The position numbers were made by a program, and so were the translations under genes. A DNA stretch of 64,000 bases, from the NCBI GenBank assembly GCA_945888325.1, contig CAMDAC010000001.1, forward strand, positions 248,001 through 312,000, in the 5' to 3' direction. This document shows positions 34,569-48,966 of the stretch, in pieces (position 1 is the stretch's first letter; the number at the start of each line of letters is the position of its first letter). The DNA comes from Candidatus Sulfopaludibacter sp. SbA3 (GTDB lineage Bacteria; Pseudomonadota; Alphaproteobacteria; Caulobacterales; Hyphomonadaceae). The notes under the pieces were generated by a model. It had not been told where the DNA came from. It ran no database searches and saw only the letters and a list, made by a program, of their open reading frames with translations.

Positions 34569-35118
34569 AGAGCTTGAGACGGCCGAAATGGCCCGCGTTC
34601 TCGGCGACAAGAAAATTCCGACCTTCTCGCCCGGCGACACGCTGGCGGTGAACGTCAAGATCAAGGAAGGCGACCGTGAGCGCGTCCAGCGCTACGAAGG
34701 CGTCTGCATCGCCCGCGCCGGTCAGGGCCTCAACGAGAGCTTCACGGTCCGCAAGATCTCCTTCGGTGAAGGCGTCGAGCGCGTTTTCCCGGTGGTCTCG
34801 CCGCTGATCGACTCGATCGAAGTGGTCCGCAAGGGCCGCGTCCGCCGCGCGAAACTCTACTATCTGCGCGACCTGCGCGGCAAAGGTGCCCGTATCGCCG
34901 AGCGCACCACCGGCCACGGCATCGAAACCCAGGAACTGGCCGTTTCGAAAACCGAGCGCCGCCGCCAGAAGGACGCCGAAAAGGTCGCCCGCAAGGACAC
35001 TGCTGCCAAGGCCCGCGCTGAAGCCGCTGAAGCCGCCGCTGCTGCCGAGGCTGTCGCCGCTGCAGAAGCCGCCGAAGCTGCTGCTGCCGCCGCTGCTGAA
35101 AAGCCCGCCGAAGAATAG
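34555..35118 (+). CDS. rplS: 50S ribosomal protein L19 with extended Ala/Glu/Lys-rich C-terminus
   Basis: [91 protein letters not shown]; 14-bp overlap with trmD. Confidence 0.97.
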
Positions 35119-45465: not shown

Positions 45466-45891
45466 ATGGCGAAAGACGCTAAGCCCGCGAAAGTGGTCCT
45501 CCTGTCCGGCGGCAATCCGCAGATTGCCCAGAGGGACGGTGATGCGCCGGTGCAGACCTATATTGCGGCCCTGCCCGGCTGGAAGCAGGAGGTCGGCCGG
45601 CGGCTGGATGCGCTGATCGTGAAAGCGGTGCCGAAGGTGCAGAAGGCGGTGAAGTGGAACTCGCCGTTTTATGGCGTCGAAGGGCAGGGTTGGTTCGTCA
45701 CGTTCCATGTGCTGACGCGGTATGTGAAGGTTACCTTCTTCAAGGGGGCCGAACTCGATCCGCCGCCGCCCGGCTTCACGGCGAAGAGCGGGGAGGCGCG
45801 CTGGATTGACCTCTACGAAGGCGAGTTTGACGAAGCCCAGCTGGCGAAATGGATGAAGCAGGCCGCGAAACTTCCGGGCTGGAAACCCTGA
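45466..45891 (+). CDS. DUF1801 domain-containing protein
   Basis: YIAALPGWKQEVGRRLDALIVKAVPKVQKAVKWNSPFYGVEGQGWFVTFHVLTRYVKVTFFKGAELDPPPPG. Confidence 0.85.
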   Translation: MAKDAKPAKVVLLSGGNPQIAQRDGDAPVQTYIAALPGWKQEVGRRLDALIVKAVPKVQKAVKWNSPFYGVEGQGWFVTFHVLTRYVKVTFFKGAELDPPPPGFTAKSGEARWIDLYEGEFDEAQLAKWMKQAAKLPGWKP

Positions 45892-45981
45892 GCCTCTGTG
45901 CTGCGCAGCCATCTGGCAAACCACTATTGCCTCCGTCGGAGTCTCGCTTATCCATCCTGTGGATAAAGCTGGTCGGGGGTC

Positions 45982-48498
45982 TTGGGGATGCAAGTGGGGA
46001 GCGGTGCGGGGCCATTGGCCGACGAACAGGCGCTGATCGCGGCCCTGCGCGCCGGTGTCTGGGCCGATCTCACGCAGGCGCCCGGATATGACGCCGAACT
46101 CAAGCCGGTCGTTTCGGCCCGATTCCTGAGAGACATGCTGCTCGGGCTCGATAGCCGCGTTGCCGGTCTCCCGTCGGGCCTGCGGATACGCGGCGCCCGG
46201 GTGGAGGGCGATCTCGACCTCGCAGATTGCACCGCGCCGGGCGGAGGCGGCTTTGGCGTTGTCGCCCTTGAGCAGTGTGATTTCTCAGGCCGCATTGACA
46301 TTACCAATGCGGAACTGTCCCGCTTTTCGATCCGCCAGAGCCGGTTTCGCGAACTCTGGGGAGAAGGCGTCAAGGTCAGCGGAGACTTCGACTTCAGGGA
46401 GGCCTCTCCATTGCCGTCGCCGCCGCCGGAAGTGCCGGTGGCCTATATCCGCTTGCGGGCGGCCCGGATCGGCGGCGATCTCTGGGCGCGCGGAGCATTG
46501 CTGAAATGCCCCGGCGACGTGCCGCGCGGCCTGACAATGGTGCCCCCGGCCTTGAACCTTTGGCTTGCCAGGATCGAGGGCAGCGCCCTGTTCGAGATGG
46601 GCTTCGTCGCCGAGGGCGATGTGCGGATGTCGAGCGCCTTCATCGGCGGCGACCTTGCATTCGACGGCGCCACGATCACGGGCCGCGATGGTCTCGCGCT
46701 CGATGCGGCCGGCGTCAACATCGGCGGCGAGGCAACTTTTGACCTGCTCGATGAGCGCCGCTTTGTTGCTGAAGGTGAAGTACGCCTGTCAAACGCCAGC
46801 GTCGGAAAGAATCTCAACTTCTACGGTGCCTCTTTGTCCAACCCGGACGGAGACGCACTCGATGTCAGTGCCAGCACAATCGGTGCGCACGTTCGCCTGA
46901 CCGTCGCCCGTGGTCACCGGTTCGAGGCCAATGGGCAAGTGGTCTTCTGGGACACGAAAGTCTCCGGCGACTTCGCCTGCAACGGCGCGCGCCTGTCTGC
47001 GCCCGGTCGTGTCGCGCTTGCGGCTGCAAACATCCAGGTGGGTGGACGGGCCGGTTTCGACAAGGTCGAAGGGTCGCGCTTTGAAGCCGAAGGCGAGGTG
47101 CAACTCGCGAACGCGACCATCGGCAAAGACCTCGCCTTTTTCGGTGCGCACCTCAGCAACCCCGGCGCCGACGCGCTGGATGCCAACGCCTGCAGTGTCG
47201 GCGGCCATGTTCAGCTGATGCCGATCGACACGACGCGGTTCGAGGCCGAAGGGGCGTCCCTGTTTTGGGACGCGCGAGTCGCCGGAGATTTCGCCTGTCA
47301 CGGCGCGCGTTTCAACAATCCCGGCGGGCTCGCGCTTGCCGCGGCCGGCATCCAGATCGGCGGCCTTGCCAACTTTGATGCCTATCAACATTTCCGGTTC
47401 GAATCTTCCGGTGAAGTCAGGCTGGCCAATGGAAGCATCGGCAAGTCGCTCAGCTTCTTTGGCGCCGCCCTGAGCCATCCGGACGGCGACGCGCTGGATG
47501 TGAGCGCCTGCAGCGTCGGCGGCCATGTCCGGCTCGTCGCGATAAACGACCACAAGTTTGAGGCGGACGGCACGACCACGTTCTGGAAGGCTCGGGTTGC
47601 CGGAGACTTCATCTGTCAGGGCGCCCGGTTTACACGTCCCGATGGTGTCGCGCTCAATGCCAGCGCATGTTCCGTAGACGGTGGACTATACGCGCATGAC
47701 AACACGCTTGATGGGATCGTCGATCTGTCGAATGCCCGGATCGATACGCTGGGCAGCTTCGCCGACTCGGCCTGGAGCGGCGCCCGCCGCATCCGCCTCG
47801 ACAGCATCAGCCTGCGGCAGATCGAAGTGGACCAGTCGGACGGCGTCGCATGGCAGGCCCGGATGCGCTGGCTGCAACGCAGCACCGACCGGACCGCAAA
47901 GGGACAGCGCATCGTGTCCCCGCATCCCTGGCGGGAGTGCGCCATCGCATTCGCGCGTTCTGGCCGCCATACTGACGCGCGGCGGATCCAGCGCGAAGGC
48001 TACCGCGAGGAGAACCGGGCCCGTCCGCTCTGGATCCGGCCGTTCGTCTGGCTGTTTGCGGAAGTTCCGTTCGGCTTTGGTCTTTCGGCGCTGCGTGCGA
48101 CCGTGACGCTCGTTGCATTCTGGATCGCCGGCATCGTGGGTGCCGAGGTCATGCTCGCGCGAAACGTGTTCGTCGACCTCTCGAGCCATGACGACCCGCA
48201 AGCTTGCCTGTCGCTTGTGCCGGCGCTTTACGCACTGGATACGGCCATTCCGATCATCGATCTGCGTCAGGAGTCGCTTTGTGATCCGGCGGATGTCGGC
48301 CAGGTTGGCCTGTTCCGGGGTATCCAGCTCTCGCGCCTTGCCGGGAGCATGCCATTCCTGCCGGCCCTGCCGGCGGTGACCTTGTTCGATGAAGTCACGC
48401 TCTGGACCTGGGCCAAGGCGATCTACGCCTTGCTGGGCACATTCCTCGTTAGCTTCGCGGGCATAACCTATTCGGGCGTATTCAAGCCGAAAGAGTAG
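45982..48498 (+). CDS. large repeat protein (putative beta-solenoid) with C-terminal membrane domain; start ambiguous (TTG 45982 or ATG 45988)
   Basis: Seven 53-aa repeats of the form [RF]EAxGEVxLANxxIGKxLxFFGAxLSxPDGDALDVSACSVGGHVRL alternating with xxFWDxxVxGDFACxGARFxxPGGxALAAAxIQIGGxAxFD; two C-terminal TM segments. Confidence 0.8.
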   Translation: MGMQVGSGAGPLADEQALIAALRAGVWADLTQAPGYDAELKPVVSARFLRDMLLGLDSRVAGLPSGLRIRGARVEGDLDLADCTAPGGGGFGVVALEQCDFSGRIDITNAELSRFSIRQSRFRELWGEGVKVSGDFDFREASPLPSPPPEVPVAYIRLRAARIGGDLWARGALLKCPGDVPRGLTMVPPALNLWLARIEGSALFEMGFVAEGDVRMSSAFIGGDLAFDGATITGRDGLALDAAGVNIGGEATFDLLDERRFVAEGEVRLSNASVGKNLNFYGASLSNPDGDALDVSASTIGAHVRLTVARGHRFEANGQVVFWDTKVSGDFACNGARLSAPGRVALAAANIQVGGRAGFDKVEGSRFEAEGEVQLANATIGKDLAFFGAHLSNPGADALDANACSVGGHVQLMPIDTTRFEAEGASLFWDARVAGDFACHGARFNNPGGLALAAAGIQIGGLANFDAYQHFRFESSGEVRLANGSIGKSLSFFGAALSHPDGDALDVSACSVGGHVRLVAINDHKFEADGTTTFWKARVAGDFICQGARFTRPDGVALNASACSVDGGLYAHDNTLDGIVDLSNARIDTLGSFADSAWSGARRIRLDSISLRQIEVDQSDGVAWQARMRWLQRSTDRTAKGQRIVSPHPWRECAIAFARSGRHTDARRIQREGYREENRARPLWIRPFVWLFAEVPFGFGLSALRATVTLVAFWIAGIVGAEVMLARNVFVDLSSHDDPQACLSLVPALYALDTAIPIIDLRQESLCDPADVGQVGLFRGIQLSRLAGSMPFLPALPAVTLFDEVTLWTWAKAIYALLGTFLVSFAGITYSGVFKPKE
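46600..47712 (+). repeat. seven tandem 53-codon (159-bp) protein repeats, alternating A/B type
   Basis: R1-R7 begin GFVAEGDV / RFVAEGEV / RFEANGQV / RFEAEGEV / RFEAEGAS / RFESSGEV / KFEADGTT. R1-R6 are each 53 residues by direct counting; R7 follows the same pattern and the block end assumes the same length. Confidence 0.85.
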
Positions 48499-48504
48499 AG
48501 CCAC

Positions 48505-48966
48505 CTAGCTATAATCCGCGATCCGGCAGAGCAGGGGGCCGCGGAACTCGAAGAAGCTGGCGCCGCGCACGCGGACGGTTTCGCCGGCGCGGATGCCGTT
48601 GGGCAGGTCCACGGCGGCCCGGCCCTCGAATTCGATCTCGGCGGCGGCGGTGCTGGCCCCGGTGACGAGGTTGGTCAGCCGCTGGCGGCGGTAGGAAAAG
48701 GCGTTTCCGGAGACTTCCGCCACCTGGCGCATCATCGCCTTGCCGTCGAGGCGCATGGACTGGCCGGCATTGGAGATGTTCTCGAACACGACATCATCGG
48801 TCACGCAGGCCAGCATCGCGTCGATGTCACGGTCATTATAGCTGGCGATATAACGGCGGATGATCTCGTCCAGCACGGCTTGCAGATCCCTTTTCGGTGT
48901 CCCTGCTACCTGCCAGCCGGGGGCGTATTGCACAAGCCGCTTTAAGCCGGAGCCAGTTTGCGCCAT
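48505..48966 (-). CDS. SnoaL-like/NTF2-like domain protein
   Basis: VLDEIIRRYIASYNDRDIDAMLACVTDDVVFENISNAGQSMRLDGKAMMRQVAEVS. Confidence 0.8.
   Translation of the reverse strand: MAQTGSGLKRLVQYAPGWQVAGTPKRDLQAVLDEIIRRYIASYNDRDIDAMLACVTDDVVFENISNAGQSMRLDGKAMMRQVAEVSGNAFSYRRQRLTNLVTGASTAAAEIEFEGRAAVDLPNGIRAGETVRVRGASFFEFRGPLLCRIADYS

Follow-up and report, generated by a model that had tools for sequence, protein, structure and literature searches.

The gene described here lies on the forward strand of the window, by which we mean the whole analysed stretch of 64,000 nucleotides, and it encodes a repeat protein of 838 codons when read from the TTG at 45982, or of 836 codons when read from the in-frame ATG at 45988. 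As this ATG is common to all orthologues and a G-rich stretch lies just 5' of it, the start at 45988, which gives a protein of 836 amino acids, appears likelier than the TTG. At this size the label "giant", which the original prediction had attached to the protein, is overstated. A comparison with six orthologues gave dN/dS values of about 0.13-0.18 for the window gene, by which measure it is under purifying selection. On its 5' side stand genes that we take, from a reading of their sequences and from general knowledge, to be leuD-like, leuB-like, an amidohydrolase gene and a DUF1801-like gene, and on its 3' side there are presumably a convergent SnoaL/NTF2-like gene and asd. The limits of the slot that holds the gene are set by the DUF1801-like gene, which ends at 45891, and by the convergent gene, whose stop codon begins at 48505. 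The features are listed below, with the repeat units being delimited by self-comparison and unit identities and the helices and strands taken from AlphaFold2.

45892..48503, no strand, variable slot holding the gene, delimited by the homology break against the congener G010
45982..48498, forward strand, whole gene of the repeat protein (open reading frame)
46024..46143, forward strand, N-terminal helical cap (residues 15-54), with helices 15-24 and 46-54; G25 is invariant in the family alignment
46180..46602, forward strand, irregular N-terminal solenoid rungs (67-207), pLDDT mostly 82-98, with a sub-threshold Pentapeptide_3 match at 97-141
46603..46761, forward strand, repeat R1 (208-260), hybrid
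46762..46920, forward strand, repeat R2 (261-313), A unit
46921..47079, forward strand, repeat R3 (314-366), B unit, DNA repeat family D1
47080..47238, forward strand, repeat R4 (367-419), A unit
47239..47397, forward strand, repeat R5 (420-472), B unit, D1
47398..47556, forward strand, repeat R6 (473-525), A unit
47557..47715, forward strand, repeat R7 (526-578), B unit, D1
47716..47826, forward strand, last solenoid strands (579-615), with strands 575-581, 586-593, 603-605 and 610-614
47827..48081, forward strand, basic helical linker with a TPR-like helix pair (616-700), with helices 623-632, 647-659, 663-678 and 686-694
48088..48165, forward strand, TM1 (703-728), from hydropathy and the AlphaFold2 helix
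48205..48207, forward strand, Cys742, first loop cysteine, marked by the even loop cysteine counts
48229..48270, forward strand, loop motif YALDTAIPIIDLRQ (750-763), in 17 family members Y750, D753 and P757 do not vary and Q763 hardly varies
48280..48282, forward strand, Cys767, second loop cysteine, presumed disulfide partner of Cys742
48391..48480, forward strand, TM2 (804-833), from hydropathy and the AlphaFold2 helix, followed by the short basic tail KPKE

Seven consecutive units of exactly 53 residues each occupy residues 208-578 (bp 46603-47715). This confirms the unit length that had been counted for R1-R6 and also the seven-unit array as such, whose limits were previously given as 207-577 and are corrected here. 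The proposed alternation of A and B units from R2 on, which results in a super-repeat of 106 amino acids, is borne out by self-comparison: over residues 205-580 the mean BLOSUM62 self-score is 2.49 at an offset of 106, 2.18 at 212, 1.21 at 53 and 1.15 at 159, which is far above the maximum of -0.26 that the same score reached in 200 shuffled controls, and the identity within the repeat region is 50% at offset 106 and 33% at offset 53. The A units R2, R4 and R6 have a mutual identity of 55-62%, and among the B units R3 matches R5 at 58%, while R7 reaches 40-45% against these two; between A and B units the identity is 23-38%, and R1 is a hybrid with an A-like first half and a B-like second half. 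The same period is seen at the DNA level as 318-bp direct repeats, which Tandem Repeats Finder misses as their divergence is too great. Since these repeats are only 66-81% identical, the duplications are, by sequence divergence, old. In the window protein the repeats are acidic, with a net charge of -17 over 371 residues. The relative at L056:5974-8505 possesses an alternating two-unit pattern of its own (KGTIW/KGPIR, units of about 49 residues), so that paired-unit duplication may have arisen more than once. A tandem array of an 18-bp unit in 5.4 copies is found elsewhere in the window (35016-35113).

The proposal that the repeats fold as a beta-solenoid is supported by a full-length AlphaFold2 model, which was built from a 12-sequence alignment (mean pLDDT 81, pTM 0.74). 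In this model nearly all of residues 70-580 exceed a pLDDT of 80 and most exceed 90 (449 residues are at 90 or above), and the predicted secondary structure consists of successive strands with a helical cap ahead and helices behind. When the whole model was compared by Foldseek with libraries of PDB and viral structures, solenoids and LRRs came up, none of them significant (best E 0.04, against the PDB), with QnrB1 and MfpA among the weak matches in the PDB. Sequence searches of the PDB with the single protein and with profiles gave TPR-like or chance matches only, no model for the family was found in scans of Pfam, NCBIfam, PHROGs and PADLOC, and Rfam gave no match. The basic linker behind the solenoid shows weak TPR matches and carries the family motif R..WL.R ... 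P.P(Y/W).....(A)...G....AR.I, with R627, G661 and G700 being invariant in the family alignment.

Of the two kinships that had been suggested for the solenoid, the pentapeptide-like one is marginal. The window protein scores 18.7 bits against PF13576 (Pentapeptide_3), below the cut-off of 27, whereas one Streptomyces relative scores above it (44.4 bits). With Pentapeptide_3, QnrB1, MfpA and YjbI the protein has in common a beta-solenoid, an A.(L/I)..G-type spacing and the weak Pentapeptide_3 and fold matches, but its 53-residue units, its Pfam score below the cut-off, its membrane tail and the lack of a visible export signal set it apart; YjbI, for example, is secreted (PMC12864828). We would regard it, marginally, as pentapeptide-like rather than as a pentapeptide member. 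The bactofilin kinship is not supported, as there was no Pfam match at E<=1 and no bactofilin among the PDB sequence and fold matches shown.

The presence of a C-terminal two-TM domain, as originally predicted, was confirmed for both hydrophobic helices by hydropathy, which places TM1 near 708-726 and TM2 near 816-834, and by AlphaFold2 (helices 703-728 and 804-833). The loop between them carries a motif that family-wide reads Y-A-L-D-x3-P-x5-Q. An alignment of 17 members has nine invariant columns (M1, G25, R627, G661, G700, Y750, D753, P757 and G819), seven of which are located in linker and tail, with M1 and G25 as the exceptions. As most invariant residues lie there, the tail is under a family-wide constraint, and the two-helix domain is probably more than an anchor. 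Among orthologues the tail does not evolve more slowly than the repeats, so this constraint is confined to certain residues.

The topology can be approached through cysteines and charges. In all 29 relatives scored the inter-helix loop contains 0, 2 or 4 cysteines and never an odd number, and outside the loop the counts are odd or even and reach up to 18; in these members two to nine Arg/Lys precede TM1 within 30 residues and the short stretch after TM2 has one to four, but all these counts come from related, non-independent sequences, and the even-count pattern is not a probability. From the even loop cysteines and the positive charge at both membrane borders we infer that the solenoid is cytosolic and that the loop is found in the oxidising exterior; the protein would thus probably be an inner-membrane protein whose solenoid and C-terminal end face the cytosol, with the cysteine-pair loop outside. 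By hydropathy there is no 19-residue hydrophobic segment before residue 708, and no export signal was seen. The cell-surface location of the original prediction is not supported, as the lack of an N-terminal hydrophobic segment, the border charges and the loop cysteines point to the cytosol.

The protein belongs to a family with one architecture, namely a helical cap, a beta-solenoid of variable length, a TPR-like linker and a two-helix tail, and the window protein possesses all the defining elements: cap, beta-solenoid, P.P(Y/W)-type linker and TM - Y.xD...P.....Q - TM. Relatives with the same architecture and 20-35% identity were found by tblastn and profile searches. A variable repeat number with a persistent TM tail, which had been anticipated, is what the family as a whole shows; the six Hyphomonas-like orthologues, by contrast, all have seven units. 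For the tail there is no model in Pfam or NCBIfam. The distribution of the family is patchy and comprises Alphaproteobacteria and actinobacterial plasmids. It is present in 9 of 289 alphaproteobacterial genomes and in 11 of 399 Pseudomonadota, mostly from one family, and it occurs on plasmids of Streptomyces, Rhodococcus, Nonomuraea, Microvirga and Shinella; the whole-family alignment being too diverse, the collection was scanned with a narrower alignment, so that the list of named species is biased to the RQE-type tail. In the window's genus a close orthologue (86-94%) occurs in 4 of 36 other genomes, and G034 adds a distant copy. Contig identity equates G034 with Hyphomonas polymorpha PS728, which makes the window's genus Hyphomonas. 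The gene is common to six Hyphomonas-like genomes, and the window group forms a long, well-supported separate branch of the tree with a stem of 1.8 changes per column. The Streptomyces and Rhodococcus plasmid proteins WP_098893184.1, WP_327740428.1 and WP_231783726.1 (23-29% identity in tblastn) have the same cap, solenoid, linker and two-helix tail, with YALDLLLPIIDFGQ as the counterpart of the loop motif in WP_098893184.1, but they differ in the length and number of the repeat units, and some of the tail loops have no cysteine pair. Phage carriage was not found, as the phage collection contained no match to the family.

Some copies and records are unusual. The Hirschia copy (L062:4223-4834) looks broken, as it comprises only 204 residues from the C-terminal part and comes immediately after transposase-like ORFs, and so does the Microvirga copy (L024:3608-5549), which is split over two overlapping frames. 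The proteins of Caulobacter sp. D5 (L063:5827-9219) and of a further bacterium (L064:3-3212) exceed 1000 amino acids and possess large non-solenoid inserts before the tail as well as extra hydrophobic helices. An orthologue of 86-95% was also found in metagenome assemblies titled Acidobacteria or Sulfopaludibacter (L051, L052 and L054); since at least two of the contigs have their match in genomes of the window's own genus, the titles look wrong.

In the congener G010 homology to the window ends at 45891 and returns at 48504, with 2.6 kb being replaced by 502 bp that contain an acetyltransferase-like ORF (L138:1629-2130), and no remnant of the solenoid gene was found in this empty slot. In G008 the slot (L139) holds ArsR-like and SRPBCC-like ORFs, as read from their translations. 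This suggests a small variable spot beside asd with contents that differ between strains; by these comparisons the solenoid gene is an accessory gene that some strains carry and that others replace by unrelated genes. The GC content is 0.649 for the gene and 0.659 for the window, and the base composition gives no sign of a recent foreign origin. At the orthologue locus L055:8973-10754 a TIR-subtilase fusion gene is located between the SnoaL-like gene and asd, and L047 has three TIR-like ORFs in the vicinity of its relative. A defence island was considered in view of the TIR domains beside these two relatives and was rejected, since most of the remaining neighbours are metabolic genes.

A second AlphaFold2 model, which comprises the tail alone (residues 591-838, 13 sequences; mean pLDDT 65, pTM 0.57), predicts with low confidence two long helices and, between them, short helices at the conserved motif. 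Foldseek gave 48 matches to this model at E up to 10, none of them significant, and 24 of the 48 were potassium-channel chains, a share that has to be read with the abundance of channel chains in the PDB in mind. Every match has an E of at least 0.57, the top one (E 0.57) being HalA, which is described as an ion channel of the Hailong system (PMC13275509). The tail resembles HalA and the 2TM pore-loop channels (Ion_trans_2) in having two helices around a helical loop segment, but it possesses neither a GYG filter nor profile similarity to Ion_trans_2. An hhalign comparison of the tail with Ion_trans_2 domains from alphaproteobacterial genomes gave a probability of 0.7%, and as there was also no Ion_trans_2 match in Pfam, ion-channel homology was rejected at the sequence level. 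Among the known anti-phage defence proteins of PADLOC-DB, with which the tail region was compared, there was no match. That the tail is a pore-loop-like membrane domain serves us as a working hypothesis, as none of the tests was significant.

Tentatively, we favor the view that the solenoid, the linker and an active, possibly pore-like two-helix membrane module function as a regulated whole. The solenoid would be a rigid platform to which a partner or ligand in the cytosol binds, and its state would be relayed by the linker to the two-helix domain. This domain would form an oligomer and act within the membrane, and it may be a regulated pore into which the Y-A-L-D-x3-P segment dips in the way of a pore helix. 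Considerably more doubtful is the extension of this to an undescribed bacterial class of pores or switches, in which a variable-length cytosolic beta-solenoid would gate a two-helix pore-loop-like domain with an external disulfide and with Y-A-L-D-x3-P-x5-Q as a motif unlike that of potassium channels, and whose patchy accessory gene would in some lineages be part of a radical-SAM pathway.

Nearly as likely as the regulated module is an inner-membrane-tethered cytosolic scaffold, in which the tail only anchors the protein and the solenoid clusters partners at the membrane. The long, confidently predicted solenoid, the topology data that point to the cytosol, and the family-wide variation in repeat number, as in scaffolds, are all in line with this, but a plain anchor would need neither the invariant Y..D...P motif nor G819.

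An unlikely explanation is that the protein has an accessory or self-protecting role in a radical-SAM pathway: in sister lineages it would work together with an enzyme cluster that is like those of cyclophane-forming maturases, and the window copy would be a stand-alone derivative. In Altericroceibacterium, Novosphingobium, Sphingobium, Hyphomonas polymorpha and Hirschia (L057, L058, L059, L061 and L062) the relatives are flanked by genes for a GrrM/OscB-like radical SAM protein, a 2OG-oxygenase-like protein, a GMC oxidoreductase, a VOC protein and an unknown protein of about 345 amino acids. A sulfotransferase-domain protein adjoins the cluster in L057. Identity between the sphingomonad and the Hyphomonas/Hirschia versions is 40-59%, and the two are rearranged; the association is therefore old or has been kept repeatedly, and such a flanking cluster, shared by five relatives with at least 40% identity between the two groups, speaks for the pathway. 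The likeness to GrrM/OscB peptide-maturase clusters is limited, as the two radical-SAM enzymes that were scored reach 254 and 279 bits and the family cut-off is 310. Moreover, the radical-SAM gene is absent around the window gene, in the rest of its genome and in four orthologue genomes, and no such neighbours occur at other family members.

We consider it improbable that the protein mimics DNA in the cytosol in the manner of pentapeptide-repeat proteins (Qnr/MfpA-like) and is incidentally membrane-bound. The Streptomyces relative above the Pentapeptide_3 cut-off, the weak matches to QnrB1 and MfpA and the acidic repeats would be compatible with such a role, but the fold matches are all non-significant, the 53-residue unit is not a strict pentapeptide repeat, and several relatives have a charge close to zero or above it. 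Surfaces are a common place for solenoids, but a cell-surface scaffold or adhesin of the bactofilin-like kind, as initially proposed, is very improbable in view of the topology signals for the cytosol and the missing bactofilin match. Hardly credible is a membrane-associated oxidoreductase, an idea that comes from the annotation of some Streptomyces relatives, as scans of members with Pfam and NCBIfam gave no redox domain in any of them. The RefSeq-derived names of members are "hypothetical protein", "oxidoreductase" and "membrane-associated oxidoreductase", the last of which is, judged by domain content, without support and misleading, and a literature search on the family and its name returned nothing relevant and no function for any member.

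The gene thus represents a recurring family of bacterial membrane proteins that has neither a domain model nor a known function and that bears a misleading name. If the tail is an active module, as in the regulated reading that we favor, the 14-residue loop motif would offer a defined target, and the coupling between solenoid and membrane would become testable. The gene clusters of the sister lineages may provide a second route to the function of the family.
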